Shown piece after piece: positions 19,650-35,878 of a DNA stretch of 64,000 nucleotides; position 1 is the first letter of the stretch, and every line of letters begins with the position of its first letter. Location: positions 434,001 through 498,000 of the forward strand of contig NZ_CP060010.1 in assembly GCF_017798205.1 (NCBI RefSeq), written 5' to 3'. The notes beneath the pieces were generated by a model. That model saw nothing but the letters and a program-made list of their open reading frames with translations, was not told where the DNA came from and made no database searches. This DNA is from Cognatishimia activa. GTDB taxonomy: Bacteria; Pseudomonadota; Alphaproteobacteria; Rhodobacterales; Rhodobacteraceae. Position numbers and translations under genes: made by a program.

Positions 19650-19815
19650 TGGCAGAGATTGTTCGTTGGCGATGTATTCTGGGCGACAAGCACCCCTTTT
19701 TCGAGTGATACGGGATACGAGAACTGAGCACTGCACGCGCTTGGATATCCTCTGGTACAAACGGATAGCCAATAACTCGTTTGAACGCTGCGGACGTGCG
19801 GTGGTTAAACAAACG

Positions 19816-19929
19816 CGCACCTGCATCAACCCACACCACCTCACGCGGGGGGATCGCCGGGACAACAAGCATGACGATTGGACCAGAGCGGCCTACGGAG
19901 TGGATCACGCCTTGCTACCCCGTGAGTGA
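19816..19929 (+). pseudogene. HNH endonuclease fragment, copy B
   Basis: Only the last 37 codons remain, in frame to the TGA at 19927-19929, including CINPHHLTRGDRRDNKHDD and the conserved tail HALLPRE. The first His-Cys part of the motif is gone, so no function is expected. The join lies about 170 bp upstream of the REC-kinase start. Confidence 0.8.
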
Positions 19930-19973
19930 GGCGCGGCCGCATTAGCAAAGAGCACACCCGCCACACCCAAACA

Positions 19974-20133
19974 GGGGCATTTTCGGGGGCATTCTGGGCC
20001 TCCATGGCCCGACTGCACCTAGCAAACACTCAAGAAAGGAAGATGGCTGGGGTGGTAGGATACCTTGCTTCTCGATACTTCCCTTCGGCTTTCCTGCAGC
20101 CCTTAGCAAACTGGGGCACTTTCGGGGGCATTT
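19974..20133 (+). repeat. Repeat boxes 1 and 2 of the HNH element (copy B)
   Basis: Box 1 (19974-19995) and box 2 (20113-20133) share the pattern GGGGCA[T/C]TTTC followed by GGGGGCATT. Each box is itself two near-direct half repeats of GGGGCATT. Box 1 also occurs at 15002-15023 (inverted relative to its HNH), 30690-30711 and 33086-33107; box 2 also at 30552-30572. Paired direct repeats of this kind resemble iterons or recombinase sites. Confidence 0.65.
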
Positions 20134-20288
20134 CTTAGGCTCGGTGACATGGGGCACCTCGAACATCCCAGCCATACCTTAGGAGGCCTTTCTGGCCTTC
20201 TCTGTGGGCTTTTCTCGGGGGGGCTCTCCGAAGGCCTCTCTCTGAGGCGCTGTCTGCAGGTCCCTCCGTACGTGGGTATCCTAATAGG

Positions 20289-20441
20289 TACCAGTAATGG
20301 GAGATAGGGGAGAAGAAAGAAGAAAGAAGAAAGAAGGAGTGGGCAGGAAAGAGCAAGCAGTCAATGGCGCTCTGGGACAGTCCCCCGCTCCGCAGGTGCT
20401 GCGCTACAAATAAGTACCAGTAATGGGAGATGGGGGGGGGG
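20289..20441. repeat. Purine-rich tract, GAAGAAA heptamers and a duplicated 17-mer
   Basis: TACCAGTAATGGGAGAT occurs at 20289-20305 and again at 20415-20431, and once on the other strand at 30362-30378. Between them lie three tandem GAAGAAA heptamers (20312-20332) in a nearly pure purine stretch, and the second copy runs into about ten G. It follows the right end of element remnant B. Such tracts can form triplex or slipped DNA. Confidence 0.6.
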
Positions 20442-20611
20442 AGAAGGATAAAGAAGACAGTTGAGCAGGACGTACTCCTTTCGTCAATCTTCGTTAGCCT
20501 CCGTGGTGTGGTGGGAGGGTACGAAAGAAGTGTTGATGAAAGGAGTGGGTGCAGCGAATGATCGGAGTGAGCCCAAACCTACCAAGTTTCTGCAATGTGG
20601 TGAATGTCGGC

Positions 20612-21547
20612 TTAAGGTGTCCGGGAGGCGCTTACGATCTGCTTCATGTGGCGCATGTCGGTGCCGCAACACCCTCCTAAAACCTGAATTTGAGGAAAGC
20701 GCCGCCTGATATCAGACAACTGCTCACCCAACTCGGTCGGATTGCCGTCGTCCAGTTCTTCAGCTTCGTCCAGTTCGGCATGGCTGCAGCGTGACGCATT
20801 GGCAATGATACCTCCCACGCGCTGCATCCACGGTGCGACTTCGAGGACTCCCGAGAAATGCTCAGGATGCGCACAGTTGATCATGTAGTAGGCTGCATAG
20901 TTATCAGTCGCACCGTCGACCTCTGATATTGCATCCTCAAGCGACGCGCCGGTTGGCAACCGTCCGTCTGTTTCCACAGTGAAAGAAATGACCACCGGAA
21001 GCTCAAACCTGCGTGCCGCCCTGACGATACCAATCGCCTCAGATGGGTACGCCAAAGTGTATCCGCTGATCACATCCACATCTGTGTCTGCCAGTACGGC
21101 TATTTGCTCCGAATGATAGCGTTCCGCCTCATCCGCGCTCATTTGCGCTTCAGGCGCGTATGCATCGTCGCGTGGTCCGATATTCGCACTGATGATTGTC
21201 GGAGCATGGTCGCTTGCTGCACGAACTGCCGCCATCATGGCGATTGCGTCTTGATTAAGCTGCTTGAGTTCGCCGAAGTCATACCCAATTGCAGCTCCGC
21301 GGTCCCGGTTTGCCACCCATGTCGGGCTTTCAAGGATGACACCAGAATGCGTTTCCTTGCCCAGAGCGATCAGGTCTTTCAGATATCCCTCGAGAAGCTT
21401 TCGACCCTCCGTGGTTTTCAAAAGCGGGTATGAAGCAAAGCCGGGCAAATCGACGCCCTGATTGAATATTAGGTCGGTTTCCATCCCGACGTAGGCCAAA
21501 AAAAGATCGGCATTGCTGGGAAGGAAAGTATCTCGGTAGATTGACAT
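20612..21547 (-). CDS. Homocysteine S-methyltransferase family protein
   Basis: This 311-residue protein (from ATG 21547; an in-frame ATG at 21601 is possible, neither has a strong ribosome site) should methylate homocysteine or a related thiol in the cytosol. The fold signature GMETDLIFNQGVDLPGFASYPLL is at the N-terminus. Zinc ligands are a Cys in YMINCAHPEHF and the Cys pair of LGGCCGTDMRH near the C-terminus. The extreme C-terminus (SASRTP) may have been replaced, because foreign repeat sequence begins directly after the stop. A SAM-dependent methyltransferase lies 120 bp upstream on the same strand, hinting at a shared methyl-transfer role, possibly S-methylmethionine or dimethylsulfonio compounds. 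Confidence 0.88.
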   Translation of the reverse strand: MSIYRDTFLPSNADLFLAYVGMETDLIFNQGVDLPGFASYPLLKTTEGRKLLEGYLKDLIALGKETHSGVILESPTWVANRDRGAAIGYDFGELKQLNQDAIAMMAAVRAASDHAPTIISANIGPRDDAYAPEAQMSADEAERYHSEQIAVLADTDVDVISGYTLAYPSEAIGIVRAARRFELPVVISFTVETDGRLPTGASLEDAISEVDGATDNYAAYYMINCAHPEHFSGVLEVAPWMQRVGGIIANASRCSHAELDEAEELDDGNPTELGEQLSDIRRRFPQIQVLGGCCGTDMRHMKQIVSASRTP

Positions 21548-21670
21548 CGTAATGAACCAGTCGCGTGAAGTGTCCTTAGACCATAACAGCCGGCGCATCA
21601 TGTGTCACTGATCCACACGTAAGAAGCGGCCATTGACGCAGCCGCAGCGAATTGGCGCTTTGTCCCGCAA

Positions 21671-22471
21671 TTATCCTCTTCGGCCGATAAGAGTTGCGAA
21701 GACCTGATAGCCATACAAAGTACCATTGCGCGCGCGTCGACGGTATTCTGAAACCAGCCCATCATGCAGTTCCTGGCTGATTTCCCCTCGCTCCATCAGC
21801 ACTTTGCCCGTTTCTACCACCCAGGGGAGCATTTGGTCGTTGTCAAGCACGCTGCGGCTCTGAAAGCTGAAGTCCTCGACGTTGAATCCAGCATCGGAAA
21901 CGAGCTTCTGAAGTTTGGCCACCGCATGCGGGTCTGTGACGAATTCCCGAACAAATATCTTTGCGCATGCATCGAGCGGGTCATATGGGAAATTTCCAAG
22001 AGACGCTTTCGAAAAATCAGCATCGCAAACGACTAGTACCCCGCCGGTCTTCAATACGCGCGAGGCCTCTATCAATAGTGGAGTCGGGTCTTCTACATGC
22101 GTCAGAACAGTATGCATGATTAGGTTGTCGACGCTTTCATCCTTCAGCGGCAGTGACGCACCATCTGCGACTTCAAACGTGACGTTGCCGTGGCCTGTGA
22201 CCCGCGCCTTGGCCTCTTTGACGAAGCCATGCGATGGCTCGAAACCAATAACGCGAGCTGGGTTTGCTCTTTCTGCTACGCGGCGGGTGACAGCCCCCGC
22301 ACCGCATCCAACCTCAACAGTCAAGCTGTCCTCTGGAAACGTGAGCTTGCTCAAGTAGCTCGCAACTATCAATTCCATTGTAGGATCGGACTGGCGTTCA
22401 TCCATTGAGTCCGCGAAAGACGAAATAAACTCTTCGCCTGCTGCATCAACATCTTGAAACGGGTCTGGCAT
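21671..22471 (-). CDS. Class I SAM-dependent methyltransferase
   Basis: A 266-residue cytosolic enzyme with the Rossmann SAM-binding motif I (VEVGCGAGAVTRRVAE, residues about 56-72), motif II (VIGFEPSHGFVKEAKARV), and motif IV region (DGASLPLKDESVDNLIMHTVLTHVEDP), typical of the Methyltransf_11/25 group. The start at 22471 has AGGAGA nine bases before it. Substrate cannot be assigned; in this family small metabolites are common. It precedes the homocysteine methyltransferase gene. The intact integrase module begins only about 90 bp upstream, so its native promoter may be partly replaced. Confidence 0.85.
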   Translation of the reverse strand: MPDPFQDVDAAGEEFISSFADSMDERQSDPTMELIVASYLSKLTFPEDSLTVEVGCGAGAVTRRVAERANPARVIGFEPSHGFVKEAKARVTGHGNVTFEVADGASLPLKDESVDNLIMHTVLTHVEDPTPLLIEASRVLKTGGVLVVCDADFSKASLGNFPYDPLDACAKIFVREFVTDPHAVAKLQKLVSDAGFNVEDFSFQSRSVLDNDQMLPWVVETGKVLMERGEISQELHDGLVSEYRRRARNGTLYGYQVFATLIGRRG

Positions 22472-22582
22472 CTCGATCGATCTCCTAAAAGAACACGAAG
22501 CGATTGAAGCACAATTGAAGCCTATATCGTTAGAGCTTTTCTCCTTTTAGTTATGAATTCGACAAAACCGAGCAAAACCAAG

Positions 22583-22622
22583 CATCTGAATAAAGAGAAC
22601 TCTTAGAGGAGATATTCAGATG
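22583..22622 (+). promoter_or_regulatory. 10-bp inverted repeat containing the start codon (copy 2)
   Basis: CATCTGAATA (22583-22592) and TATTCAGATG (22613-22622), the latter ending in the ATG of the first ORF. The only change inside the interval from copy 1 is G to A in the ribosome site (AGAGGAGA instead of GGAGGAGA). Conservation of both arms supports a structural role. Confidence 0.6.
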
Positions 22623-22850
22623 TTCAGCTCTTTCACGCTGTGGTGCGTGTTGGGGGTCAGCTTGCGGCTGGCCCTTTTTCTTTTCCTACGATGGAAGTGG
22701 GACGTGAGGCCGATAATACCCAACGGCCTGTCCTACTGCATTGTCCTGCTGGCCGTGATGCCTTCGTGGATGCAGCCAGTGCCTCTCCCGCTACCGATGT
22801 CTCTGGCACTCGGCTTCGTCCTCCCGGACCTCTTGCTGGCGAGATCATGA
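22620..22850 (+). CDS. Small hydrophobic membrane protein of integrase module (copy 2)
   Basis: A 76-residue protein with hydrophobic segments at about 4-24 and 37-72 separated by the basic RWKWDVRPIIPNG segment; likely two to three membrane passes. No family recognised. It opens the integrase operon and its start codon lies in an inverted repeat. Small membrane proteins ahead of integrases could be superinfection-exclusion or toxin-like products, but nothing in the sequence proves either. It differs from copy 1 only by conservative changes. Confidence 0.6.
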   Translation: MFSSFTLWCVLGVSLRLALFLFLRWKWDVRPIIPNGLSYCIVLLAVMPSWMQPVPLPLPMSLALGFVLPDLLLARS

Positions 22851-22851
22851 C

Positions 22852-23055
22852 ATGGACCTCCATCCCGGAGACCATGTGGTCATCAGGGCCTTCGACGACA
22901 TCCCAGAACACCTCTTCCTCGTGGATGAGGTCTATGACGATTGCGTTGGTGGCTACTCTTTAACTGGCCCGCTCGAAGGTGAGTACGGCGAGCCAGACTT
23001 CGACATGATCTTGCGAAAGATCACTTCCCGCATTTTTAAACCGAAAGGAACCTGA
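22852..23055 (+). CDS. Small acidic protein of integrase module (copy 2)
   Basis: A 67-residue soluble protein starting one base after the preceding TGA and ending 3 bp before the integrase ATG. It has a likely beta-rich N-terminal half (GDHVVIRAFDD, LFLVDEVY) and a basic tail (RKITSRIFKPKG). No family recognised. Its position suggests a directionality or regulatory factor for the recombinase, though it has no evident helix-turn-helix. Confidence 0.55.
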   Translation: MDLHPGDHVVIRAFDDIPEHLFLVDEVYDDCVGGYSLTGPLEGEYGEPDFDMILRKITSRIFKPKGT

Positions 23056-23058
23056 CAG

Positions 23059-24318
23059 ATGTCAGCACAGATCCGCTATGCCTATCTGAAAGGTCAGACT
23101 TGGCTCTATCGCCGCAACTACCCAAAGGATGTTGCTGCCCTCCTGGGCCAGAAGGCCCTCAAACAATCCCTGAAGACCGGAGACCTCAAGCTTGCTCGGA
23201 AAAGGGCGGCAGAGGTCAACACCCAGTACGAGAAGACTGTCGAGGAGGCCCTCTCTGGCGCTCTCTTGCTGCCTTCCTCCTCTGGATGGTCCCGCCACTC
23301 GGAAGAGGCTCTCGCTCGTCTACGTGACAGTCTGCAGCACTCTGAGCAAGCCGGCTTCGTGAAGAAGATCGCAAAGGACACGACTGTGGAGAGTGCCTCT
23401 CGCCGTTATTTGCACCGACGTATCCGCGAACTCCGGCCCGGTGGCTTTAAGAGTGTTCGTTACTCCGTGGAGCTCTTTGCCTCCAACCACGGAGAGAAGA
23501 AGCTCTCGGAACTGATGAAGGAGGACGGGAAGGAGTTCCTGTCCCTCATCTCGAAGCTCAGTGCCAACATCGGGAAGTCCCAGACAACGCGGGGCCTCTC
23601 GCTCGATGCAGCAGTCACGTGGTCGATGGGTCGAAGAGATCACATCACGGGGCGCACCCAGAGACGTATCTGGGCACAGGTGAACCAGTGGCTCACGTGG
23701 TGTGTCTATGAGGACTTACTGGAGGCCAATCCCTTTGCGCATGTTCGCTTCGAAGCCAAGATCCGTCCTCAGCCCTATGCTGTGCCAACGGATGACGAGG
23801 TGAAGAAGCTCCTTGGTGCGAGAGAGCATATCATTGCTGATGTGATGAAGCTCTGTCTCTTCTCTGGGATGCGAGCGGGTGAAGCAGCAGGGCTCCTAGC
23901 GGAGGACATCGTGGACAAGGGCCCAGCAGGGCTCTTCTTCCATCTTCGTCCCAACCACCTGCGTCTTCTAAAGACCGAGGCGGCAGAACGGTGGGTTCCG
24001 GTGCATCCTGAGCTACTGGCATTGTTGAAAAATACACAAGGACCGCTCTTTCCGGACCTCACGGTGAACGACATCACCAAGCGCTTTGCTTTACTTCGGA
24101 AAAGGCTGAAGATCGAGAGACCTGGTCTGGTGTTCCACAGCGCCCGCAAGTGGTTCATAACTCAGTGCGAAAGAACTGGAGCTCCAGAGCACTTCACTGC
24201 CAGTATTGTAGGACACTCAGCGGCTCGTTCTGAGAACGGGATCACCTACTCGCTCTACTCAGCAGGCATCTCGGATCAGCAGAAGCGCGACTTAGTGGAC
24301 AGGGTCGCTGCACCATGA
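23059..24318 (+). CDS. Tyrosine recombinase / site-specific integrase
   Basis: A 419-residue phage-type integrase. The N-terminus (MSAQIRYAYLKGQTWLYRRN) looks like the DUF6538 or arm-binding type found in alphaproteobacterial integrases, followed by a core-binding region at about 95-230 and the catalytic domain at about 240-415. Catalytic residues are visible: Arg in LFSGMRAGEAAGL, the His-x-x-Arg box in HSARKWFITQCERTG, the second His in SIVGHSAARS, and the nucleophile Tyr in the YSLYSAG segment. AAGGA lies upstream of the start. All key residues are present, so it is probably active. The first 26 codons are duplicated at 6318. Confidence 0.93.
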   Translation: MSAQIRYAYLKGQTWLYRRNYPKDVAALLGQKALKQSLKTGDLKLARKRAAEVNTQYEKTVEEALSGALLLPSSSGWSRHSEEALARLRDSLQHSEQAGFVKKIAKDTTVESASRRYLHRRIRELRPGGFKSVRYSVELFASNHGEKKLSELMKEDGKEFLSLISKLSANIGKSQTTRGLSLDAAVTWSMGRRDHITGRTQRRIWAQVNQWLTWCVYEDLLEANPFAHVRFEAKIRPQPYAVPTDDEVKKLLGAREHIIADVMKLCLFSGMRAGEAAGLLAEDIVDKGPAGLFFHLRPNHLRLLKTEAAERWVPVHPELLALLKNTQGPLFPDLTVNDITKRFALLRKRLKIERPGLVFHSARKWFITQCERTGAPEHFTASIVGHSAARSENGITYSLYSAGISDQQKRDLVDRVAAP

Positions 24319-24488
24319 TCCCTGATATCGAAGCCTTCGAGGAACGCGCTGCCATTGCTGAGTACGATGGCGGGCTTACCAGAAAGCGCGCTGAGGATGT
24401 CGCGGCTCAGGGACAGGGCTTTCCAACACGGCAGGACTACTGGGCTTGGCTGGCAGAGTATGTGCTCAACGAGAGGCTACCACCGTGA
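24315..24488 (+). CDS. 57-residue protein coupled to the integrase
   Basis: An ATGA overlap joins this frame to the integrase stop. The product begins MIPDIEAFEERAAIAEYDGG and continues with LTRKRAEDVAAQGQGF and a WAWLAEYVLNERLPP end. It is acidic and helical. The EERAAIAEYDGGLTR pattern is familiar from small ORFs next to integrases in alphaproteobacteria, but its function is not known. It ends nine bases before a strong terminator, so it closes the operon. Confidence 0.65.
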   Translation: MIPDIEAFEERAAIAEYDGGLTRKRAEDVAAQGQGFPTRQDYWAWLAEYVLNERLPP

Positions 24489-24496
24489 TCACATCT

Positions 24497-24540
24497 CCGT
24501 CCGGGCGAAAGCTCGGGCGGCGAGCTTCTTTGTTTTTTTG
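24497..24540 (+). terminator. Rho-independent terminator after the integrase operon
   Basis: A 10-bp stem (CCGTCCGGGC at 24497-24506 with GCTCGGGCGG at 24511-24520, two G-U pairs) closed by a GAAA tetraloop, followed by a T-rich tract TTCTTTGTTTTTTT at 24526-24539. Confidence 0.88.
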
Positions 24541-24881
24541 CGGAAGGCGGCTTAGCGGACGAAGCCGCCATTCGCAGCGACTGCGCCAACGGCAGCTTTC
24601 TGCGCATTGCGTCTGCAGCGAAAAGCACCATGGCGGGGTTCCTAACTTTCGGTACGTGTGCGATGGGATCGTGCCGGGAAGGCAAGAGCAGACGTTCTGA
24701 ACGGCTGGAAACGAGCATATCGCCGCACGATCGCAAGGCAGCTCTGAGCCCCGACTGAGCCTTGGTGAAGCCCACAGATTCGGTTTTCAAGACCGGCTAG
24801 TGCTCCTCAGCTGAGGGGCGCAAAGATGTCGGCTAACTGCACAAGCACTCAATAATCTCGGCAGCAACGCTTGTCCGATCG
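24541..24881. other. Gene-free stretch between integrase operon and frcK
   Basis: About 340 bp with no credible frame. It contains GC-rich sequence with GCAGC/CTGCG-type short repeats (24565-24615), similar in style to 30040-30220. A tRNA anticodon-arm-like hairpin CGGT-TTTCAAG-ACCG lies at 24781-24795, and a palindrome GCTCCTCA-GC-TGAGGGGC at 24802-24819. No full tRNA can be folded. This may be an old attachment site. Confidence 0.4.
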
Positions 24882-25526
24882 CTATTGGAGCTCAGCGTTG
24901 CCCGAAACTGCAACGTCGGAGCTGAGCCTCCGGCGGGCTATAGTGTCCGCGTTATATAAATCATTCCCTATCGCCCTTACTTCTGCCTCTTCCTGGGAAA
25001 GACCTTGTTCCAGCCAGCGTTCGACGAGGCGTCGTTTCAAGGCTTCATTCCCCACGTTTAGCCAAACAGAGAAGTCCCAATGGGGTTTCAACTCGCGCCA
25101 AGCGGGTGCGTCAAACAACAAGTAGTTACCTTCGACAAGCACAGTATCACAGTCCGGCCCGACAGACCCCGTTCCGCCAATCGCGATATCCCGATCACGG
25201 TCAAAGGTCGGAAAGTAGACCTGTTCTTCGTTGGTCAACGCAGCAACCATTCGCAGGAACCCGTTGGCATCAAACGTCTCTGGTGCGCCTTTCCGTTCCA
25301 ACAGTCCAAGCTCTGACAATACGCTGTTATCGAGGTGAAAGCCGTCCATCGGGACGACCTGGGTTGGACAACCGGCTTCGCACATCGCGCGAGCAAGGGC
25401 TTCGGAGATCGTTGATTTGCCGGAAGCAGGCGGACCGGCGATGGCAACAAGCCTTCGCCTTCCTTTGCGCGGCGCTGCCAGTGCGGGAGCCAGCAGCGCC
25501 TCGGCGATGTTATGAGGCGTATTCAC
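24882..25526 (-). CDS. frcK: Fructose operon kinase-like P-loop protein (FrcK, uridine kinase-like)
   Basis: A 214-residue P-loop nucleoside/sugar kinase-like protein. Walker A is GPPASGKSTIS at about residues 31-41; the MDGFHLDNSVL segment holds the acidic and His residues of the PRK/Udk fold, and VEGNYLLFDAPAW is the typical following strand. It overlaps the ABC ATPase gene by 4 bp (ATGA). This gene order (binding protein, permease, ATPase, kinase) matches frcBCAK of Sinorhizobium meliloti, where the transporter takes up fructose, ribose and mannose. The kinase substrate is not proven here. Confidence 0.85.
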   Translation of the reverse strand: MNTPHNIAEALLAPALAAPRKGRRRLVAIAGPPASGKSTISEALARAMCEAGCPTQVVPMDGFHLDNSVLSELGLLERKGAPETFDANGFLRMVAALTNEEQVYFPTFDRDRDIAIGGTGSVGPDCDTVLVEGNYLLFDAPAWRELKPHWDFSVWLNVGNEALKRRLVERWLEQGLSQEEAEVRAIGNDLYNADTIARRRLSSDVAVSGNAELQ

Positions 25527-26299
25527 GCCGCGTCCTGAGCGGGAGGTTCCTTGGCACCGGTCATAAAGGCCACAGCGTCCGACATGGTGTAGTCTTTCGG
25601 GTCAATCGTGCAAAGACGTTTACCCAGGCGATGGACGTGAATGCGATCTGCAACCTCGAAGACGTGAGGCATGTTGTGGCTGATCAGGATGATCGAGATT
25701 CCACGGGCTCGCACGTCCTTTATCAGTTCCAACACCCGGCGGCTTTCCTTGACACCGAGCGCGGCTGTCGGCTCGTCCATAATGATGAACTTCGAGGCGA
25801 AGGCTGCGGCGCGCGCGACAGCGACACCTTGGCGTTGTCCGCCGGAAAGAGTCTCGACCGGTTGCTTAATCGACTGCACGGTCATAAGCCCGAGTTCAGT
25901 CAGTTTCTCACGGGCGAAAGTCTCCATAGCTGGTTTGTCCAGCATCCGAAGCCAATCACCGAGAGGGCCTTTCTTACGGATCTCACGTCCGGTGAACATG
26001 TTGTCCGCGATGGACAGGGCCGGAGACAAAGCCAGGTTTTGGTAGACGATTTCGATCCCCATTTCACGTGCCTCGATAGGCGAGGTGAAGTGAACCGGTT
26101 TTCCGTCGATGAGAATTTCACCCTCATCAGGGACGGTTGCGCCGCAGATCGCTTTCACAATTGACGACTTACCGGCGCCGTTGTCTCCGATCACGGCCAG
26201 GATTTCGCCTTGGCGTAGTTCGAAGTCCGAGTGGTCGATTGCGGTCACGTGGCCATAGCGCTTCACGATTCCGCGGGCTTGTACGACTGGAGTAGACAT
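25523..26299 (-). CDS. frcA: Sugar ABC transporter ATP-binding protein (FrcA)
   Basis: A 258-residue single-domain ATPase from ATG 26299, which overlaps the permease stop (TAATG); a longer frame from 26377 is just read-through of the permease end. Walker A GDNGAGKSSIVK is at about residues 37-48, signature LSGGQRQGVAVARA at about 140, Walker B FIIMDEPTAALG at about 160, and the His switch LISHNMPHVFEVAD. Sugar ABC ATPases of the RbsA/MglA class are usually double; a single domain of this length is the hallmark of the FrcA type, which works as a homodimer. Confidence 0.93.
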   Translation of the reverse strand: MSTPVVQARGIVKRYGHVTAIDHSDFELRQGEILAVIGDNGAGKSSIVKAICGATVPDEGEILIDGKPVHFTSPIEAREMGIEIVYQNLALSPALSIADNMFTGREIRKKGPLGDWLRMLDKPAMETFAREKLTELGLMTVQSIKQPVETLSGGQRQGVAVARAAAFASKFIIMDEPTAALGVKESRRVLELIKDVRARGISIILISHNMPHVFEVADRIHVHRLGKRLCTIDPKDYTMSDAVAFMTGAKEPPAQDAA

Positions 26300-27369
26300 T
26301 ATGCCGATACCCTTCTGATCCATTGGTCGATTGCGACCGCGATGATGATGAGCCAACCGATAGCGAAGACCTGCCACAGCACGTCGACACCGGCCATGCG
26401 AAGACCCGATTGGAAGACGCCCACAATCAGGGCTCCGAAGAGCGCTCCCATGATCGAGCCACGTCCACCAAAGAGTGAGATGCCTCCGATAACTACGGCC
26501 GTGATCGACTGAAGATTGCCCTCATAGAATGACTGTGGCGAGATTGAACCGACACGACCGATGGATGCCCAACCAGCCAGCGCACAGACAAAACCTGCCA
26601 GCAAATAGACAGAGACCAGCGTGCGTTCGGTGCGGATACCAGCTAATTCGGCAGCTTCCATGTCGTCGCCGATGGCATAGACGTGGCGGCCCCATGCGGT
26701 CTTGTTCAGCATGTACCAAAGCACGACAAAGACGACGATCATCAGGATTACGCCAAATGTGATCCGTGCGCCGCCAAGATTGATGGCATTGCCGAAGAAC
26801 TTCAGGAACGGCGCGTTTGCGTCGATATCCTGCGAACGGATCGACTGCGCACCAGAGAGCCAGAGGTTCAGAGCAAAGAATATCGACCAAGTGCCCAGAG
26901 TGGTGATGAAGGGCGGCAGCTTGATCTTGGTGATTAATAGGCCGTTCATCATGCCCGCCCCTGTGCCGCCGAGGAAACCGACCAGTATGGCAAGCGGGGC
27001 GGGAACGCCCATGGTAACTGCCAGGTTGCCCATGATGACGGACATCAGGACCATAATTGCAGCGACTGACAAATCGATGCCCGCTGTGATGATAATCATG
27101 CTCTGGGCGGCTGCCAGAATGCCGATGATCGAAACTTGCTGCATGATCAAAGACAGGTTAAAGGCTGAGAAAAAGCGTTCGCCGGCAATGATGCCAAAGG
27201 CCAGAAGGCTGATGAGAAGAACAATAACCGGAACCAGTGTCGGGTTATTGTGCAAGACGTGCTGAATGCGTTCCAAAAGCGTGTGGCTTTTCTTGAACTC
27301 GGCGACTTTACTGTCGCTACCATCCAGAACACGCTCAAACTCTTGCGAGGGTTGGGATGTGTTCGTCAT
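26299..27369 (-). CDS. frcC: Sugar ABC transporter permease (FrcC)
   Basis: A 356-residue inner-membrane permease of the BPD_transp_2 (RbsC-like) family with about nine to ten helices. ATG 27369 is chosen, with GGAGG eight bases upstream, rather than 27417. The conserved cytoplasmic coupling segment reads GRHVYAIGDDMEAAELAGIRTERTL, close to the family EAA-like loop. AAQSMIIITAGIDLSVAAIMVL is the typical second-helix signature. It is preceded by a stem-loop after frcB and overlaps frcA at its end. Confidence 0.93.
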   Translation of the reverse strand: MTNTSQPSQEFERVLDGSDSKVAEFKKSHTLLERIQHVLHNNPTLVPVIVLLISLLAFGIIAGERFFSAFNLSLIMQQVSIIGILAAAQSMIIITAGIDLSVAAIMVLMSVIMGNLAVTMGVPAPLAILVGFLGGTGAGMMNGLLITKIKLPPFITTLGTWSIFFALNLWLSGAQSIRSQDIDANAPFLKFFGNAINLGGARITFGVILMIVVFVVLWYMLNKTAWGRHVYAIGDDMEAAELAGIRTERTLVSVYLLAGFVCALAGWASIGRVGSISPQSFYEGNLQSITAVVIGGISLFGGRGSIMGALFGALIVGVFQSGLRMAGVDVLWQVFAIGWLIIIAVAIDQWIRRVSA

Positions 27370-27441
27370 GTCGGTATCCTCCGCCTTCAGCATGGCCAAG
27401 GCGTTCGACTGTGTCAAAGATTAGGTGGGGAGAGAGTTGAA

Positions 27442-27460
27442 GGGGGCGACACGCGCCCCC
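27442..27460 (-). promoter_or_regulatory. Intercistronic stem-loop between frcB and frcC
   Basis: GGGGGCG (27442-27448) pairs with CGCCCCC (27454-27460) around a 5-nt loop, just past the frcB stop. As with the dctP hairpin, it has no T-run and probably raises frcB mRNA over the downstream genes. Confidence 0.7.
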
Positions 27461-27484
27461 TCCGAGGGGAGAGAAGTTAGGCGA

Positions 27485-28501
27485 TTAGCCCCAGCACTTC
27501 GCCAGACCTTCGGCCGAGGTCAGCGAGTCGATGCCGGCAACAGGCTGGTCGGTGATCAGCTCAACACCAGTGTTGAAGAAGTCGAGACCTGGGGTGTTCT
27601 CAGGCTTGGTGCCGTTGTTGGCCCAGTCGACAATCGCATCGATGCCTTTGGATGCCATCAGCAATGGGAACTGCATCGAGGTCGCGCCGATCACGCCTTC
27701 CGCGATATTCTGGACACCCGGGCAGCCACCATCGACCGATACGATCAGAACGTCGTCCTGACGACCAAAGGCTTTCAACGCTTCATATGCACCGGCAGCG
27801 GCAGGTTCGTTGATGGTGTAAACAAGGTTCACTCCTGGGTCGATCTGGAGAAGGTTCTCCATCGCGGTGCGGCCGCCTTCTTCATTGCCGTTGGTAACGT
27901 CGTTGCCGACAATACGCGCATCGTCTTCGTCACCGATGTCGGTTGGGTCTTTGATGTCGATGCCAAAGCCCTGCAGGAAGCCGTTGTTACGCAGGTAGTC
28001 AACCGAGATTTCCGATGGATTCAGGTCGAGCAGCGCGATTTTCGCATTCGCTGCGTCATCGCCCATTTTGGCTTTCGCCCACTCACCGATCAGAACGCCC
28101 GCTTTGAAGTTGTCAGTTGCGAAGGTCGCATCAGCCACATTTGCAGGCTCAAACGGAGTGTCGAGTGCGATGACCAGAGCGCCAGCTTCACGTGCTTGCG
28201 TGATAACAGGGGTCAGTGCGCGGCTGTCGGTTGGTGTGATCAGGATGCCCTGTGCGCCCGATGCGATGCAGCTTTCAACCGCGGCGATCTGGCTTTCAAC
28301 GTCGCCGTCGATTTTACCAGCATAAGTCGAAAGGCTTACACCGTTCGCTTCGGCCCCTGCCAACGCACCTTCCTTCATTTTAACGAAGAACGGGTTGGTG
28401 TCGGTTTTGGTGATCAGGCAGGCGCTGATGTCAGCCGATGCTGCCGACGCGAATGCCGAGGCGGTCAGGGCCAGTGCGGATGCAGTTACGAGTTTTTTCA
28501 T
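27485..28501 (-). CDS. frcB: Sugar ABC transporter periplasmic binding protein (FrcB)
   Basis: A 338-residue secreted receptor with a clear signal peptide (first 23 residues, ending ASAASA). The mature protein has the Peripla_BP_4 sugar-binding pattern: [22 protein letters not shown], then [22 protein letters not shown] and [21 protein letters not shown], the last carrying the Asn-Glu hinge motif of ribose/fructose receptors. GGGAGG lies six bases before the ATG. First gene of the frc operon, divergent from the ROK regulator. Fructose is the expected main ligand by analogy with the rhizobial operon. Confidence 0.92.
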
Positions 28502-28603
28502 GATGTCCTCCCAGACAATTCAACAAGGCCCAAGTGGGGCCAATCCTCCAAGTGATCGCTGTGATCGACACTAGGCATAAACGCGATTCGAGGCAGCCGT
28601 CAA

Positions 28604-28632
28604 TAAATAAATAAAGTTGATTTATTAATTCG
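28604..28632. promoter_or_regulatory. AT-rich dyad in the frcB-frcR divergent promoter
   Basis: AATAAA (28610-28615) and TTTATT (28621-28626) flank GTTGA, in the gap between frcB and the ROK gene. ROK repressors bind AT-rich dyads of this kind. The 13-mer TAAATAAAGTTGA at 28608-28620 also forms part of the FCD operator arm at 4666-4678. Confidence 0.5.
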
Positions 28633-28666
28633 AGATCCCTTATTTTCTTTTCCAGGGAGGACGTCT

Positions 28667-29878
28667 ATGGTTCGGGCAATGGATGGAAGCAAAGTAAGAG
28701 AGATCACGGGAGGCGTGAATCAAAGTGGTGTTCGGGACCATAACGAACGCCTCATCCTCTCTATGCTTCAGCGCCATGGCCCGATGCCAGGAAGCGATGT
28801 TGCCCGGCAATCCGGACTGTCACCCCAGACGGTTTCGATCATTCTGAGGAAGCTGGAAAAGGACGGCATTCTCCGCCGCGGCGATCCGGTGCGGGGAAAG
28901 GTTGGCAAACCGTCGATCCCGATGGAGCTGAACCCGGATGGGGTCTTTTCGGTTGGGCTGAAAATCGGGCGCAGGAGCGCAGACCTGGTGCTGATGGATT
29001 TCTGCGGCGAAGTCCGCAACCAGCTTCACACGACATACGATTACGCGCTACCGGATGCCGTCTTCGGGTTCCTCGAAGCGGGGTTAGAGGAAATCAAATC
29101 GGGCTTGACCGCCGCCCAAAAAACACGCCTTTGCGGAATCGGCATCGGGACACCTTTTGAGCTTTGGAAGTGGCATGACCTCGAAGGAATTGCCGCAGAA
29201 CGGTTTCGCTCGTGGAAAGATGTAGACTTTTCCAAGACTGTCGCTGCGTTCTCCAAGCTGCCAGTGTTTGTCGTCAACGATGCAACCGCCGCTTGCCATG
29301 CCGAACACCTCTACGGACGCGGTAAGGAATTCAGGGATTATGCCTACTTCTTCATTGGATCGTTCATCGGGGGTGGTGTCGCCCTGAACGGCACCGTGTT
29401 CGAAGGCAATCAGGGGAACGCAGGGGCACTGGGATCGATGCGGACGACTGGGCCCTTGGGTGAAAGCCAGCAACTTATCGACACCGCGTCGCTGCACCTT
29501 TTGGAGGCGCGGCTAGTTGAGGCCGGTGTTGATCCTTCAATCCTTTGGAACAAGCCCCAAGACTGGACCGGGATCGAACGGTACGTCGAGCCCTGGATCG
29601 GCGAAACCGCACAAGAATTGGCAAAGGCGTCGCTCTCTATATGTTCGGTGATCGACTTCGAAGCGGTTCTGATCGATGGCGCCATGCCAAAAGAAATTCG
29701 GGACGAGTTGGTGGCCCGCGTCGAGCGCTACATCGTCAACCAGGACAAACGCGGGCTCATCGCGCCCGAGATAGAGGCCGGTTCAGTTGGCGAAAATTCA
29801 CGGGCCGTGGGCGCGGCAAGCAATCCGATCTTTCGACAGTTCCTGCTGAACACGAATGCAGGGTTATCCGCAGGTTAG
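28667..29878 (+). CDS. frcR: ROK family transcriptional regulator (FrcR)
   Basis: A 403-residue regulator with an N-terminal winged helix (NERLILSMLQRHGPMPGSDVARQSGLSPQTVSIILRKLEKDGIL, residues about 25-70) and a C-terminal ROK sugar-kinase-like domain (residues about 88-395) that includes an FIGSFIGGGVALNGTVFEGNQGNAGALG segment. The kinase zinc cluster (CxCGxxGC) is not evident, which is common in regulatory ROKs of this group. Start ATG 28667 follows GGGAGG. It is divergent from frcBCAK, the arrangement of FrcR in rhizobia, so it probably represses that operon until a sugar or sugar phosphate binds. Confidence 0.88.
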   Translation: MVRAMDGSKVREITGGVNQSGVRDHNERLILSMLQRHGPMPGSDVARQSGLSPQTVSIILRKLEKDGILRRGDPVRGKVGKPSIPMELNPDGVFSVGLKIGRRSADLVLMDFCGEVRNQLHTTYDYALPDAVFGFLEAGLEEIKSGLTAAQKTRLCGIGIGTPFELWKWHDLEGIAAERFRSWKDVDFSKTVAAFSKLPVFVVNDATAACHAEHLYGRGKEFRDYAYFFIGSFIGGGVALNGTVFEGNQGNAGALGSMRTTGPLGESQQLIDTASLHLLEARLVEAGVDPSILWNKPQDWTGIERYVEPWIGETAQELAKASLSICSVIDFEAVLIDGAMPKEIRDELVARVERYIVNQDKRGLIAPEIEAGSVGENSRAVGAASNPIFRQFLLNTNAGLSAG

Positions 29879-30353
29879 GAGCGTTCGCTGGTGACGACCC
29901 CGGCAACCTGGATCAGAAAGCGGACGCAGGCGGGCGGGAACGAAAGGAAACGTGATTGGGCGAAAATGGCCAGTTCCCGCCAGCCGCGCAAAGGTCAGAA
30001 AAGTCCCGCAGACTGTGAGTTTGGCCGCCCACCGATTTCACAAACGCAGCGAATGGCAGGTTCGACGGGCCGCACCGCAGCGATCAGAGCCCTCGGCTGA
30101 CGGCAGGTTTGGGCCGCTCTTCGCCGCTAAATGGCAGCAATGCGCGGTTCGCTCCCGTTCAAGCGTAGTACAGAATCCGTCACATTGGGCTCATTCCGGT
30201 CATTCGCTGCCAGAATCACTTCGTTAGCACTTCTTTCCTACGCTCCAACACCACACTAAGGAGTCTAACCATGTTGAAAGAACAAGATGAACTCATGAAC
30301 ATCCTTCTCTAATACGTTCTAAGCTACGGGATTACGGATAGAGCTTCTTCCTT
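29879..30353. other. Gene-free stretch after frcR, with a 13-codon ORF
   Basis: 29941-30235 holds GC-rich intergenic sequence (GAATGGCAGGTT, CATTCGCTGCC and similar short inverted pieces) with no credible gene. At 30271-30312 a 13-codon frame (MLKEQDELMNILL) follows an AAGGAG site eleven bases upstream; it may be a leader peptide or chance. No terminator for frcR is seen. Confidence 0.4.
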
Positions 30354-30635
30354 CTTCCCCTATCTCCCATTACTGGTACCTATTAGGATACCCACGTACG
30401 AAGGGACCCATAGACAGCGCCTCAGAGAGAGGCCTTCGGAGAGCCCCCAGAGATGGTCACAGAGAGCTCCAGGGAGGCCTCCTAAGGTATGGCTGGGATG
30501 TCTGAGTGCCCCTATCGCGAGCTCCCTAGAACAGCCTGTAACCAGCCTGAGAAATGCCCCCGAAAGTGCCCCAGTTTGCTAGGTGCTTGGGTAAAGCCGA
30601 AGAATGCTATCGAGAAGCAAGGTATCCTACCACCC

Positions 30636-31000
30636 CAGCCATCTTCCTTTCTTGAGTGTTTGCTAGGTGCGGTCAGGCCGTAGAGACCCAGAATGCCCCC
30701 GAAAATGCCCCTGTTCGGGTGTGGCGGGTATCCCCACCAGAACACCCAGCGCGCCTCACTCACGAGGTAGCAAGGCGTGATCCACTCCGTAGGCCGCTCT
30801 GATCCAATCGTCGTGCTTGTTGTCCCGGCGATCCCCCCGCGTGAGGTGGTGTGGGTTGATGCAGGTGCGGTTATGGCACCGATGGCGCACCACGATACTC
30901 CACGGTAACGCCACGCCTTCCGCGACACAGTAAATGAACCGATAGGCCTCCAGCTGCACCCCTCGGAACCGTGCTTTGCGCGGCTCCTGAGTGGGTGTGG
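30636..31000 (-). repeat. Left arm of a 365-bp inverted repeat
   Basis: This 365-bp segment is, base by base as far as I can compare by eye, the exact reverse complement of 32797-33161. Both arms contain the HNH 3' part and box 1. They flank 1796 bp holding most of the helicase gene and the 5' part of the HNH gene. Confidence 0.85.
30756..31000 (-). pseudogene. HNH endonuclease fragment, copy C
   Basis: It keeps the last 81 codons, including the full RHRCHNRTCINPHHLTRGD motif and the HALLPRE end, but lacks the first 41 codons. A start at ATG 30959 inside the frame (MQLEAYRF in the sibling copies) would give 67 residues with a whole HNH motif, so residual activity cannot be excluded. It is identical to the same part of copy D on the opposite strand. 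Confidence 0.75.
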
Positions 31001-31067
31001 CGAGCGGCCAATAATCGCTGCTTTTTTCGCCTCATAAGTTACTGTTTTTGAATATCTTTTACAGGCG

Positions 31068-31130
31068 ACCCTTTAGGTGCTCTCTAAAAAGGGTCTGCCA
31101 CCTGTGAATTTCGAACCATTTTTCGGTTCG
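31068..31130 (+). other. Two stem-loops upstream of the helicase gene
   Basis: ACCCTTT (31068-31074) pairs with AAAGGGT (31088-31094), and CGAACC (31112-31117) with GGTTCG (31125-31130). They lie 100-160 bp before the helicase start in an otherwise gene-free 227-bp stretch unique to this copy. They could be a leader structure, a single-strand origin or an antisense RNA site. Confidence 0.4.
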
Positions 31131-31227
31131 GAGCAGCTCCATTCTTCAAGTCCACTCAATCAAAAAACTGCACGGCCTGCATGCACTCCGCATGTGGGTT
31201 AGCGAGCTATTATAAGAAAGACATTTA

Positions 31228-32673
31228 ATGCAAAATCATAACATTCAGATCAATGATCGACGGGCCAATGCCGCCATTAACGAAGAAGACGTCCACAGGC
31301 TCGCCCGAGCAATGTCGGGCTGGTACGTTCGGATGGATGGCAAGTACTACGACGCCAGTGATCCCAAGAACAAGTATTCTCGGGACGATGTGCAGGCAGC
31401 ATCGACCTTCCGCTTCCAGGAAGACTTTCCAGAGATCCCACTTTCGGACGAACTCCTTCGAGAGGTCTTCGAGACTGCGCTGACGAAGAAGACCTTCGAC
31501 CGATCGCTCGCAGTCCCTACTTGGAATGGAAAGGTCCAGTGCCTTCCAGGACAACAGGATCGGTTCAGCTGGAAGCACGGTATGGTGACCATCAACACCT
31601 GGACCGAGCCAGCCTACCGGAGCGTTGAAGTTGCTGAGGGTTCCCTCGGGACGATCGGTGACTTCCTCGACTTCATCTTCGACACCGAGCGAGAAAAGGA
31701 TATCTTCCTGAACTGGCTTGCATGGTGCCTTCAGAATGAGGATCAGAAGCCAACGTGGGGTCCGTTGCTTTACTCGAAAAGCAAAGGTACCGGCAAAAGT
31801 ACACTGTGCGACATCGCTCGAGCGCTGTTCGGCAAGGGCAACTCCATCCGCCAGAACAACGTCGATAAGCTGACCGGGCAATTCAACCTTCAGGTCTTGC
31901 TGTCGAAGTTGGTGATCTCGGAAGAGCTCGACATCCGACCCGGCACTAAGGCAGCAAACGCGCTGAAGACCTTCATGACCGAGACCGATGCGAGTGCCGA
32001 GGCTAAGGGACGCGAACTGCAACGGATCGAGCAGTGCTTCGCTGCTATTTTCACCTCCAACCACTTGCCGCTCTGGATCGAAGAAAACGACCGTCGGTAT
32101 TGGGTTGTTGGGATCGAACATGACGGGCGTGCGGGTGGCGCGAGGGCGGCAGAGTTCGGAGAGCTCGTAGGAAACCTCTACGCCTACCTGGGGCACGATG
32201 CCCATCTTGCAGAGGCCTACGCCTATCTGATGCAGCGAGAGCTCCCAGTGGGCTTCTCAGGGAAGGCGTTCAATGTTGCTGAGTTGATGACCCCGGCCAT
32301 GGAGTTGATCTTCGGCAATGGCGCTCGCACCTCCAACGAGATCCTTCAGGAGTATCTGGACGAGAAGGGACTGAACTGGATCCTTCAGACGCAGCTGAGT
32401 GAGTATATCACCGGCGAGTTGCGCGGGAACGTGAATGCGCTCCGGTACCCAATGACTGAGTTGGGCTGGAAGAAAGCTGAAGTGAAGTTCGGTGGTCGAG
32501 ACTACCGCCGATCTGTCTGGGTGCGTCCAGGGTTCACCGCTGCTGGTGGGAGGTTGATCCATCCCGATGGTAAGAGTGAGCTTCTTATCGACGACGGTGA
32601 ACGGATCCAAGATCAGATTACGGGTCGCAACCAAGTCTTCGAAGACACCATCTCGGAGGAGGACATTTACTGA
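31228..32673 (+). CDS. D5-type SF3 helicase / phage-plasmid primase C-terminal (DUF5906-like)
   Basis: A 481-residue replication protein. A central superfamily 3 ATPase is seen: Walker A SKGTGKSTLC at about residues 187-196, Walker B LVISEELD at about 228-235, and the sensor strand FTSNHLPLWIEENDRRYWVVG at about 270-290, typical of P4/D5 family helicases from phages, satellites and plasmids. The first 150 residues do not show a primase polymerase active site, so this is a helicase-only form or has an unrecognised N-domain. The C-terminal 130 residues resemble a winged-helix region. It overlaps the HNH gene (TGATG), so the two are co-translated. This is the likely replication initiator of the element. 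Confidence 0.88.
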   Translation: MQNHNIQINDRRANAAINEEDVHRLARAMSGWYVRMDGKYYDASDPKNKYSRDDVQAASTFRFQEDFPEIPLSDELLREVFETALTKKTFDRSLAVPTWNGKVQCLPGQQDRFSWKHGMVTINTWTEPAYRSVEVAEGSLGTIGDFLDFIFDTEREKDIFLNWLAWCLQNEDQKPTWGPLLYSKSKGTGKSTLCDIARALFGKGNSIRQNNVDKLTGQFNLQVLLSKLVISEELDIRPGTKAANALKTFMTETDASAEAKGRELQRIEQCFAAIFTSNHLPLWIEENDRRYWVVGIEHDGRAGGARAAEFGELVGNLYAYLGHDAHLAEAYAYLMQRELPVGFSGKAFNVAELMTPAMELIFGNGARTSNEILQEYLDEKGLNWILQTQLSEYITGELRGNVNALRYPMTELGWKKAEVKFGGRDYRRSVWVRPGFTAAGGRLIHPDGKSELLIDDGERIQDQITGRNQVFEDTISEEDIY

Positions 32674-33041
32674 TGTATCGAGAAAAGAACGAAGCCTGGA
32701 TGCAGGACGTGCTTGATAACCACTACGAGGAGGCCCTTGCGAGGGCCAACTCACTCCTTGCCGAGGTGGAACAGGATCCAATAACAGGATGTCTCCCCAC
32801 ACCCACTCAGGAGCCGCGCAAAGCACGGTTCCGAGGGGTGCAGCTGGAGGCCTATCGGTTCATTTACTGTGTCGCGGAAGGCGTGGCGTTACCGTGGAGT
32901 ATCGTGGTGCGCCATCGGTGCCATAACCGCACCTGCATCAACCCACACCACCTCACGCGGGGGGATCGCCGGGACAACAAGCACGACGATTGGATCAGAG
33001 CGGCCTACGGAGTGGATCACGCCTTGCTACCTCGTGAGTGA
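32673..33041 (+). CDS. HNH endonuclease, copy D (intact)
   Basis: The only complete copy, 122 residues, starting MYREKNEAWMQDVLDNHYEE. An N-terminal helical part (1-40) is followed by a variable bridge and the HNH_3 motif RHRCHNRTCINPHHLTRGDRRDNKHDD at residues about 83-109, with the Cys pair and His residues of small phage and homing nucleases. It overlaps the helicase stop by one base. Three further partial copies lie in the window. Coupling of a nicking nuclease to a replicative helicase could start rolling or strand-displacement replication, or serve in DNA packaging; both are inferences. Confidence 0.85.
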   Translation: MYREKNEAWMQDVLDNHYEEALARANSLLAEVEQDPITGCLPTPTQEPRKARFRGVQLEAYRFIYCVAEGVALPWSIVVRHRCHNRTCINPHHLTRGDRRDNKHDDWIRAAYGVDHALLPRE

Positions 33042-33161
33042 GGCGCGCTGGGTGTTCTGGTGGGGATACCCGCCACACCCGAACAGGGGCATTTTCGGGG
33101 GCATTCTGGGTCTCTACGGCCTGACCGCACCTAGCAAACACTCAAGAAAGGAAGATGGCTG
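32797..33161 (+). repeat. Right arm of the 365-bp inverted repeat
   Basis: Mirror of 30636-31000. It ends at 33161 inside GGAAGATGGCTG, where the homology to remnants B and C stops abruptly and phage-like AT-rich DNA begins. Confidence 0.85.
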
Positions 33162-33532
33162 TGCATACAGTCTTGAGCTAACTAGTCTCGGCAGAAATTC
33201 CCTGCTTTCTGGGAATTCAGCAGGGATTTCTATAAAATGTGCGCTTAATTCTCACATTAGGCGTCATTTCCAAGAACAAATTCAGACATTTAGAAATTAA
33301 ATTCCCTATTCACCCTAGTAGGGAAATCAGATGTATTTACAGGGAAGACCAAGCTTCTTTTGGCAGAATGCAATTGAAGGAAGTTAGCTTTAGTTAAGTT
33401 GACTTTGATTTTGCTTTCGCGCCTTATTTGGGCAATTGATCAGGTATGCGGCCGACGATGCCCGTAAATCAATGAAAGGGCTGAACTCCCAAACGCTTCT
33501 GAAGTGCCTTTCGGCAAGATTGAGCAATAGAA
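33162..33532. promoter_or_regulatory. AT-rich control region with repeated TTCCCT/AGGGAA boxes
   Basis: This is gene-free. An 11-bp imperfect dyad AAATTCCCTGCT/AGCAGGGATTT lies at 33195-33229, and a second dyad TTCCCTA/TAGGGAA at about 33301-33325, with further GGGAATTC and CAGGGAA boxes at 33211 and 33340. The repeated half site with varied spacing looks like phage repressor operators ahead of the cassette that starts at 33533. Confidence 0.5.
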
Positions 33533-34450: not shown

Positions 34451-35878
34451 GTGACTTCGAAAACCTCGCAAAACAAGACGCCAAAAGGCATACCTCGCAA
34501 CCTAAGCACTCGGTTACCGGCACCGGAGAAGCTCGAGCTTGTCGAGACAGATAAGCTAAGTCCCAATCCTCGCAACGCGCGCACCCATTCAAAAAAACAG
34601 ATCAATCAAATCGCAGAAAGCATTCGGGCGTTTGGGTTTACCAATCCAATTCTGATCGATGATGATTGTGTTGTCATCGCCGGGCATGGCCGTTTGCAGG
34701 CTGCAAAGAAATTAGAACTTACTCGTGTTCCCGTGATGCGTCTCAGCCATTTGAGTGATGCTGAAAGGCGTGCTTACGTCCTTGCAGACAACAAGATTGC
34801 TCTCAACGCTGGTTGGGATAGCGAACTTCTCTCAATCGAGCTCGGCGATCTGGCCGACTTGTTACCAGCGATAGACATCGATCTAGAGATCACCGGCTTT
34901 GCCACCGGCGAGATCGACATTCTGTTGTCCGACCACGAGGCCCCTACCCCATCTCAGACCGAAGAAGACAAATTGCCCGAGCCTGCCTCGGTATTGGTCT
35001 CTAAACCCGGAGACATATGGCAACTTGGCGAGCACCAAGTTCTATGTGGGGATGCTCGCGACGCAGAAGCAATTTCTGAGTTTTTTGCCGGGCGAAGCGC
35101 GAGCTTGGTCATCACGGACCCGCCATACAACGTTCGGATCCAAGGGCACGTTGGTGGAAGGGGCAAAACCAAACACGAAGAGTTCGCTTTTGCATCTGGA
35201 GAGATGTCAGATCATGAATTCACAGAGTTTTTGAGCAAGAGCCTTTCTGCCATGCTGCTCCAAGTGGATGACGGTACACTGCTTTACGTATTCATGGACT
35301 GGCGCCACATCGAGACTTTGCTTTCAGTCGGCCGAGATCTAGGCCTAAGTCTCAAAAATATCTGCATCTGGAACAAAACCACTCCAGGACAAGGATCATT
35401 CTATCGTTCAGCACATGAACTCGTTGCAGTGTTTGCAAAATCAGGAAATGCATGCACCAACAACGTGCAGCTTGGGCGGTACGGTCGTAACCGAAGCAAT
35501 GTTTGGACCTATCCTGGAGTAAACACGTTCCAAACCGCGGAAGGTGACGATCTTGCGCTACATCCAACGGTTAAGCCCGTCGCAATGATTGCCGAAGCCA
35601 TCAAGGATGCATCACCCAGAGGGGCTGTCGTATTTGATCCCTTTCTCGGTTCGGGAACGACCTTACTGGCAGCAGACAAGGTAGGCCGTCGATGTTACGG
35701 CGTTGAATATGAACCAGAATATATCGATACAGCAATCAGGCGGTGGCAGCTTTTAACAGGCAAAGACGCAATTCTACGCCGTCGTTTGGAAGAGGCTTGC
35801 GATCTTTATGCCGCCGAAGAACTGACCTTCGATGAGGTGTCCAGTCGAGCGCCAACTACCGTTGGACAAAACCCATGA
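34451..35878 (+). CDS. ParB-domain DNA methyltransferase (N4/N6, beta class)
   Basis: A 475-residue fusion starting at GTG 34451 behind TTTAGGA. Residues about 28-125 are a ParB/Srx-like nuclease-fold domain (LVETDKLSPNPRNARTHSKKQINQIAESIRAFGFTNPILID... VVIAGHGRLQAAKKL). Residues about 190-445 are an adenine/cytosine methyltransferase with the catalytic TDPPYNV motif near residue 221 before the SAM-binding FDPFLGSGTTLLAAD motif near 395, the beta-class order. No restriction enzyme lies nearby, so it is a solitary phage-type methylase. It overlaps the DUF5681 gene by 4 bp (ATGA). ParB-methylases often accompany terminases and may mark phage DNA or protect packaged DNA. Confidence 0.92.
   Translation: MTSKTSQNKTPKGIPRNLSTRLPAPEKLELVETDKLSPNPRNARTHSKKQINQIAESIRAFGFTNPILIDDDCVVIAGHGRLQAAKKLELTRVPVMRLSHLSDAERRAYVLADNKIALNAGWDSELLSIELGDLADLLPAIDIDLEITGFATGEIDILLSDHEAPTPSQTEEDKLPEPASVLVSKPGDIWQLGEHQVLCGDARDAEAISEFFAGRSASLVITDPPYNVRIQGHVGGRGKTKHEEFAFASGEMSDHEFTEFLSKSLSAMLLQVDDGTLLYVFMDWRHIETLLSVGRDLGLSLKNICIWNKTTPGQGSFYRSAHELVAVFAKSGNACTNNVQLGRYGRNRSNVWTYPGVNTFQTAEGDDLALHPTVKPVAMIAEAIKDASPRGAVVFDPFLGSGTTLLAADKVGRRCYGVEYEPEYIDTAIRRWQLLTGKDAILRRRLEEACDLYAAEELTFDEVSSRAPTTVGQNP

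Follow-up and report, generated by a model that had tools for sequence, protein, structure and literature searches.

The window analysed here, 64,000 nucleotides covering positions 434001-498000 of the single-contig 3.25-Mb assembly of Cognatishimia activa, contains two long inverted arms on either side of a helicase gene. The locus raises the question of what such a mirrored pair is, and why its two members are so alike. A sequence-only reading of this DNA had described the arms as exact reverse complements with the 3' end of an HNH gene and a repeat box in each and a helicase between them, and had proposed that recombination between them flips the segment. The description has held up. The stretches 30636-31000 and 32797-33161 are reverse complements at 365/365 bases, an identity for which chance is far too weak an explanation; both carry the 3' part of the HNH gene and a TGCCCC-type box, and the helicase does lie between them (Table 1). 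Alignment with blastn extends the pair to 369 bp (30636-31004 and 32793-33161) with one mismatch rather than many, in agreement with a repeat search, and leaves a gap of 1788 nt. Assembly collapse is an unlikely source of the arms, because the layout recurs in other genera and a second pair, described below, differs at 13 positions.

The proposed consequence of a flip is another matter. The HNH 3' end is present in both arms and the gene would be whole either way, so the suggestion that a flip meaningfully changes what lies downstream of HNH is not supported. An isolated invertible switch was also discarded as a full account, since the arms appear to be attachment-site halves of a larger element.

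Probable attachment sites at the arms and a tRNA-Gln target

The left arm begins 11 bases into the 17-bp sequence TCCTACCACCCCAGCCA (30625-30641). All 17 bases agree with the 3' end of tRNA-Gln(TTG) of the host, whose gene is located at 516 kb. A genome search for this 17-mer allowing up to 2 mismatches returned six copies, 6/6 of them exact and all between 431 and 516 kb, and repeats related to the arms occur at further genome places, again all within 431-516 kb. In a complete site the core stands between two box-bearing arms, P with TGCCCC boxes on one side and P' with boxes like them on the other; the P and P' names are given by analogy with attachment sites, and the binding roles are putative. 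Each arm appears to be one half of an attachment site, the inner half (P'), in an element that uses a tyrosine recombinase and whose target would be the 3' end of tRNA-Gln(TTG). An Rfam search of the window and of the loci L009 and L010 gave a single match, the tRNA-Gln itself, and no other RNA element.

The element, here called E2, appears to be integrative and to span ~13 kb (about 20044-33161), with P-core-P' at 20060 (minus strand), P-core-P' at 30625 (plus) and CAGCCA-P' at 33161 (minus). The helicase and HNH half lies between the P' arms (sites 2 and 1), which are 99.7% identical, and the cargo and integrase half between the P arms (sites 3 and 2), which are 82% identical. The Phage_integrase match of the DUF6538 gene lies above the curated cut-off, identifying the product as a tyrosine recombinase. 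The cargo half also holds methyltransferase-like genes, a sugar ABC operon and a ROK gene, several of these names being read from open reading frames, with Pfam used for integrase and ROK only. An unsystematic look recognised no transfer or rolling-circle gene in E2. Boxes resembling AATGCCCCCGAAAGTGCCCCAGTTT adjoin the cores of other elements, and an arm-binding role is presumed for this box. The helicase gene is single-copy in the genome (there is, besides, one very weak partial match, E 0.013); its match to TIGR01613, the P4 primase C-terminal family, is at E 2.5e-5, below that family's cut-off, and Pfam and NCBIfam scans found no primase domain in it. The HNH gene matches Pfam HNH_3 at E 0.0009, below the cut-off, and a PHROG endonuclease at E 1.7e-11.

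Table 1. Coordinates, within the window, of the putative element E2 and its right flank.
Feature	Position	Strand	Basis or remark
E2 site 3: core TCCTACCACCCCAGCCA	20044..20060	-	exact core match; P arm to the right, P' of an older neighbouring element to the left
E2 cargo and integrase half	20061..30624	.	lies between inverted P arms (303 bp, 82%)
DUF6538 tyrosine recombinase, 419 aa, open frame	23059..24318	+	Pfam DUF6538 E 1.3e-12; Phage_integrase E 9.2e-7
P-arm box AATGCCCCCGAAAGTGCCCCAGTTT, presumed arm-type recombinase sites	30553..30577	+	repeats the P' box in direct orientation
E2 site 2: core intact, opposite in orientation to sites 1 and 3	30625..30641	+	core matches
Left inverted arm	30636..31004	+	contains the core end, the P' box (30692-30715) and the HNH 3' end in antisense
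DUF5906 / P4-type helicase, 481 aa	31228..32673	+	Pfam E 9.3e-17; PHROG primase E 5.2e-24
HNH endonuclease-like gene, 122 aa	32673..33041	+	last part inside right arm; open reading frame, Pfam, PHROG
Right inverted arm (site 1, P' half)	32793..33161	-	arm alignment and repeat search
E2 site 1: CAGCCA as sole core remnant	33156..33161	-	preceded by flank X, no tRNA
Flank X, GAGACTAGTTAGCTCAAGACTGTATGCA on the minus strand	33162..33189	-	pattern in 20/394 family genomes
ParB-MTase, DUF5681, TerL cassette beside X	34451-37858	.	Pfam

A version of the region without E2 is found in another genome of the genus, G006, where bases 2-663 of contig C232 correspond to window 19389-20049 and bases 426-727 to 32925-33226; an insertion of E2 in G000 would explain this as well as a loss of E2 from G006. 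Homologues of the sugar ABC and ROK genes of E2 (window 24882-29878) lie just outside site 3 of L218 (L218 1-3895), in another genus, and the methyltransferase-like gene at 20612-21601 has a homologue near a site in L102 (2-352). Elsewhere in the window, an older HNH/P' copy (14974-15402) contains a 54-bp P' piece inverted in place relative to HNH, and a 2548-aa open reading frame with Gly-rich repeats (6950-14596), autotransporter-like by eye, sits between two attachment sites at genome positions 431674 and 454044.

Flank X, beyond site 1, ends in GACTGTATGCA just before CAGCCA and is common to G006, L101 and L095; a control with the reversed pattern gave 0 hits in the 394 family genomes. ParB-MTase homologues occur near X in several genomes, and DUF5681 and TerL homologues in fewer: MTase matches were obtained at 5/20 X loci with short flanks and in 4/6 longer stretches, TerL matches in 2/6, and a tRNA beside X in 0/6 of the longer stretches. 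After CAGCCA, L240 and L245 continue into what looks, by eye, like the native region downstream of tRNA-Gln; E2, L249 (from the genome of L095) and L251 continue into box-bearing P'-like sequence. X and its ParB-MTase/DUF5681/TerL genes, read earlier as a phage cassette that a flip would offer as an alternative partner, are probably the end of another tRNA-Gln-targeting element, presumed to have inserted between the tRNA and E2. E2 would then be stranded, having lost the tRNA side of its site 1 core upon that insertion. Simple decay of the half core at 33161 was considered as well; the presence of X in other genomes makes the insertion of another element likelier.

The three-site layout in other elements

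A clean case is provided by E1 in the same genome (505776-516287), which begins at tRNA-Gln and runs in the order P'-polymerase-P', inverted complete site at 513829, cargo, two-frame integrase, P-core and then AAACACTTCC. The empty site is seen in G006, where AAACACTTCC directly follows the tRNA core, and therefore E1 inserted site-specifically at the tRNA end. The insertion leaves the tRNA whole in E1; site 1 of E2 has no tRNA. The inverted P' pair around the polymerase-like gene of E1 measures 403 bp and is 96.8% identical, with 13 differing positions. The polymerase module of E1 and its relatives has a family-A palm/fingers fold, and sequence comparison of the polymerase with solved structures gave no meaningful match.

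The integrase segments of E2 (window 22564-24540) and E1 (L009 1636-3611) are 99.6% identical over 1977 bp, the E1 copy (at 508 kb) being split into two frames, unlike the open copy of E2. The replication halves of the two elements are unrelated, a polymerase in E1 versus a helicase in E2. This combination is consistent with cassette exchange, in which inverted sites let halves swap between elements that share a recombinase, as is the recurrence of E2 cargo genes beside sites in L218 and L102. However, the stretch shared by E1 and E2 is the integrase segment and not a whole half, and their P' arms differ; we consider exchange of this kind quite improbable as the explanation for the layout.

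A search with a polymerase alignment found 196 relatives, the best 80 of which gave 79 fetched loci. Among these best 80 of 196, the polymerase lies between inverted repeats (minimum length 60 bp, minimum identity 85%) in 20/79 loci, tRNA-Gln(TTG) is present in 17/79, and the enclosing repeat is found in 12/17 loci with the tRNA against 8/62 without it. The five tRNA-Gln loci that lack the repeat are L097, which has direct cores only, L153, which has a polymerase fragment, and L113, L119 and L136, in which the locus ends inside the polymerase or within about 4 kb. When related genomes were searched for the arrangement, as the earlier reading had suggested, the full three-site plan (tRNA-core-P' / inverted P'-core-P / P-core) was found in 11 elements besides E2: E1, G001, L094/G044, L096, L098, L100, L106, L108, L116, L144 and L218. 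The P' arms of these 11 are 245-527 bp long and 88-100% identical, and their P arms range from 24 bp (L116) to 332 bp; in L094, L096, L098 and L218 both the P and the P' sides are 99-100% identical. In G001 and L108 the third site runs into another P', that of a tandem neighbour. An integrase match lies between sites 2 and 3 in 10/11, L218 having IS-like open reading frames instead. The module between the P' arms is either the helicase with HNH or the unrelated family-A-type polymerase; two unrelated replication modules thus occupy the same mirrored frame.

The helicase is found at E 1e-25 or better in 9/394 family genomes, its own included. Nine loci were fetched around other helicases, and five of them (L216-L220) adjoin tRNA-Gln(TTG). 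Their P' arms measure 335 bp in L216 (340 by whole-locus comparison), 527 in L218 and 307 in L220, with 99.7-100% identity; L217 and L219 reach contig ends and show one site. The remaining loci, L221-L224, have neither tRNA-Gln nor core. L221 (G177:C3) is a 12.6-kb contig with homologues of both helicase and polymerase and several recombinase-like genes, and carries a 64-bp direct repeat (95%) near its two ends.

The tRNA-Gln site is present in 9/9 genomes of the genus. The core of site 2 equals the tRNA core in 15/15 elements with the tRNA at site 1, a count biased to intact cores, as sites were found via core similarity and decayed inverted sites would be missed; it also tracks the tRNA where the latter differs (L106; L116, L218 and L220). 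Single-site relatives exist, namely L097 and L233, and therefore the second site is not indispensable. L233, on Paracoccus versutus pBEN, carries polymerase and integrase with two direct cores and no inverted site, and is possibly the ancestral single-attP form. L102 has three sites, and its two integrase copies are contained in a 2071-bp inverted repeat (96.8%) outside the polymerase half.

The repeat region had no match in the phage collection; the polymerase matched 154 phage records, 0 of them covering 80% of the query, and four plasmid records, one of which (Paracoccus pBEN) covers at least 80%. The helicase gave partial matches only against phages and plasmids. In IMG/VR, single proteins found no match and alignment A1 found six distant loci.

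Arm identity, orientation and the possible use of inverted sites

The earlier claim that identical arms reflect duplication or gene conversion finds support in comparisons across elements: the best match of a P' arm is its own partner for 34/34 arms in 17 elements. The P' arms thus evolve in concert, being homogenised within each element. For P arms the figure is 20/24; the pairs in E2 and L116 make up the four exceptions.

We give about even chances to the explanation that E2 has two attachment sites in inverted orientation, with the arms as their P' halves, and that the excised element is a circle with inverted sites that undergoes inversion in the manner of the yeast 2-micron plasmid. If site 1 recombined with site 3, the excised circle would contain attP twice, complete in both cases and in inverted orientation, and the recombinase or homologous recombination acting between these copies could invert one half against the other. 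An inversion during replication could convert two converging forks into two chasing forks, a double rolling circle, and thereby raise copy number; replication would be the likeliest use of the arrangement. The complete strategy, namely tRNA-Gln circles with inverted attP in which recombinase inversion, during replication by the element's own polymerase or helicase, drives double rolling circle amplification and keeps the arms identical, is proposed by analogy and only tentatively. The E2 P arms, only 82% alike and among the 4/24 P-arm exceptions, weigh against the 2-micron-like explanation, as do the single-site relatives. Recombinases of the lambda type, to our knowledge, do not normally join one attP to another, which also counts against the model.

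The sites might instead have no programmed function, having arisen by an ancestral inverted duplication of attP and remaining alike through ordinary gene conversion. The existence of single-site relatives agrees with this, and so does the fact that the arms end at arbitrary points in the neighbouring gene (at 16 loci the arm contains the polymerase 3' end in 7, the 5' end in 7, both in 1 and neither in 1). On the other hand, the inverted core is intact in 15/15, in a search that favours intact cores, and one plan serves two unrelated replication modules, both of which suggest selection; an arrangement without function is possible but doubtful.

Orientation bears on the proposed inversion and on a further alternative. 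In a polymerase tree of 72 rows made by a quick method (10/79 loci, L104, L123, L132, L136, L152, L157, L160, L164, L165 and L172, are off the tree, and E1, G001 and L233 were added), the polymerase half points away from the tRNA in 10 rows and towards it in 9, 2/19 of these labelled rows (L097 and L233) being elements with direct cores only and no inverted site found. This occurrence of both orientations is in line with the earlier idea of a flip. The tree calls for at least 5 changes of orientation, and well-supported branches force 3 of them; shuffles average 6.6 changes, 89 and 78 of the 500 being as low, and orientation is barely clustered on the tree. Many of the genomes are draft assemblies, where a segment flanked by identical arms may be misplaced and its orientation is unsure. 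The helicase halves with a visible site 1 point towards it in 6/6 cases, which counts against free flipping of the helicase half. The earlier view of the E2 segment as a stand-alone switch is not supported, given this uniform orientation and its being one half of a ~13-kb element. Among 12 elements (E1, E2, G001, L094, L096, L098, L100, L106, L108, L116, L144 and L220), the recombinase gene faces site 2 in 10 and site 3 in the other 2.

The two orientations of the polymerase halves would be expected if recombination of sites 1 and 2 in the integrated element flipped the replication gene, which could then be read from the tRNA-Gln promoter in one orientation only. However, the helicase halves face the tRNA in 6/6, and a promoter within the arms could not act as a switch because the arms are identical, which makes control of expression rather unlikely. 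Another role for complete attachment sites in inverted orientation is known from CTXphi, where fold-back of a single strand gives a double-stranded attP. The inverted copies might pair similarly in a single-stranded transfer or replication form, but the loop would be ~1.8 kb in E2 and longer in others, and the unsystematic look at E2 turned up neither a transfer nor a rolling-circle gene; fold-back is very improbable here.

Inversion-coupled amplification by a tyrosine recombinase is known to us from yeast plasmids. If the 2-micron-like model is true, bacteria use it too, through a family of integrative elements that recurs in marine genomes; the persistent identity of the arms would be explained, and the unannotated family-A-type polymerase (phrog_4756) would gain a function. 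A conserved third attP in inverted orientation is unusual even if no amplification takes place, and element finders built on direct repeats would misdescribe such a layout.

Comparison with known systems

Tycheposons, as described in the available portion of PMC10872708, share with these elements the targeting of a tRNA 3' end, a tyrosine recombinase and variable cargo. The difference lies in the third attP, inverted, which the elements here have around their replication module; that portion of PMC10872708 describes none. In the retrieved sections of the open-licence PMC literature, no description of the mirrored-site layout was recognised. Invertons likewise have inverted repeats around a gene, and E2 has a tyrosine recombinase; however, the arms here are hundreds of bases long, and the halves hold replication genes, cargo and recombinase rather than a promoter switch. 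P4-type satellites resemble E2 in the helicase, which is related to the P4 primase C-terminal family and DUF5906, but the E2 helicase has 481 aa with no primase domain found, and packaging genes were not recognised in E2.

A further close parallel is the yeast 2-micron plasmid (Flp/FRT), in which two inverted sites within long near-identical repeats split the circle into halves, and inversion while replication is under way leads to amplification by double rolling circle. E2 and the 11 further elements are similarly divided into two parts by two inverted sites, and the type of enzyme, a tyrosine recombinase, is shared. Repeats that are nearly identical on both sides of the core, as in the plasmid, are seen in L094, L096, L098 and L218, but in E2 on the P' side only. 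Unlike the plasmid, they are integrated at a bacterial tRNA gene, have an attP-type site with box-bearing arms and carry their own polymerase or helicase, and for them the circle, its inversion and its amplification are predictions. Double rolling circle replication has been linked to frequent inversion of repeats (PMC3147054). As to isomers, both orientations are found for polymerase halves across species, and one for helicase halves.
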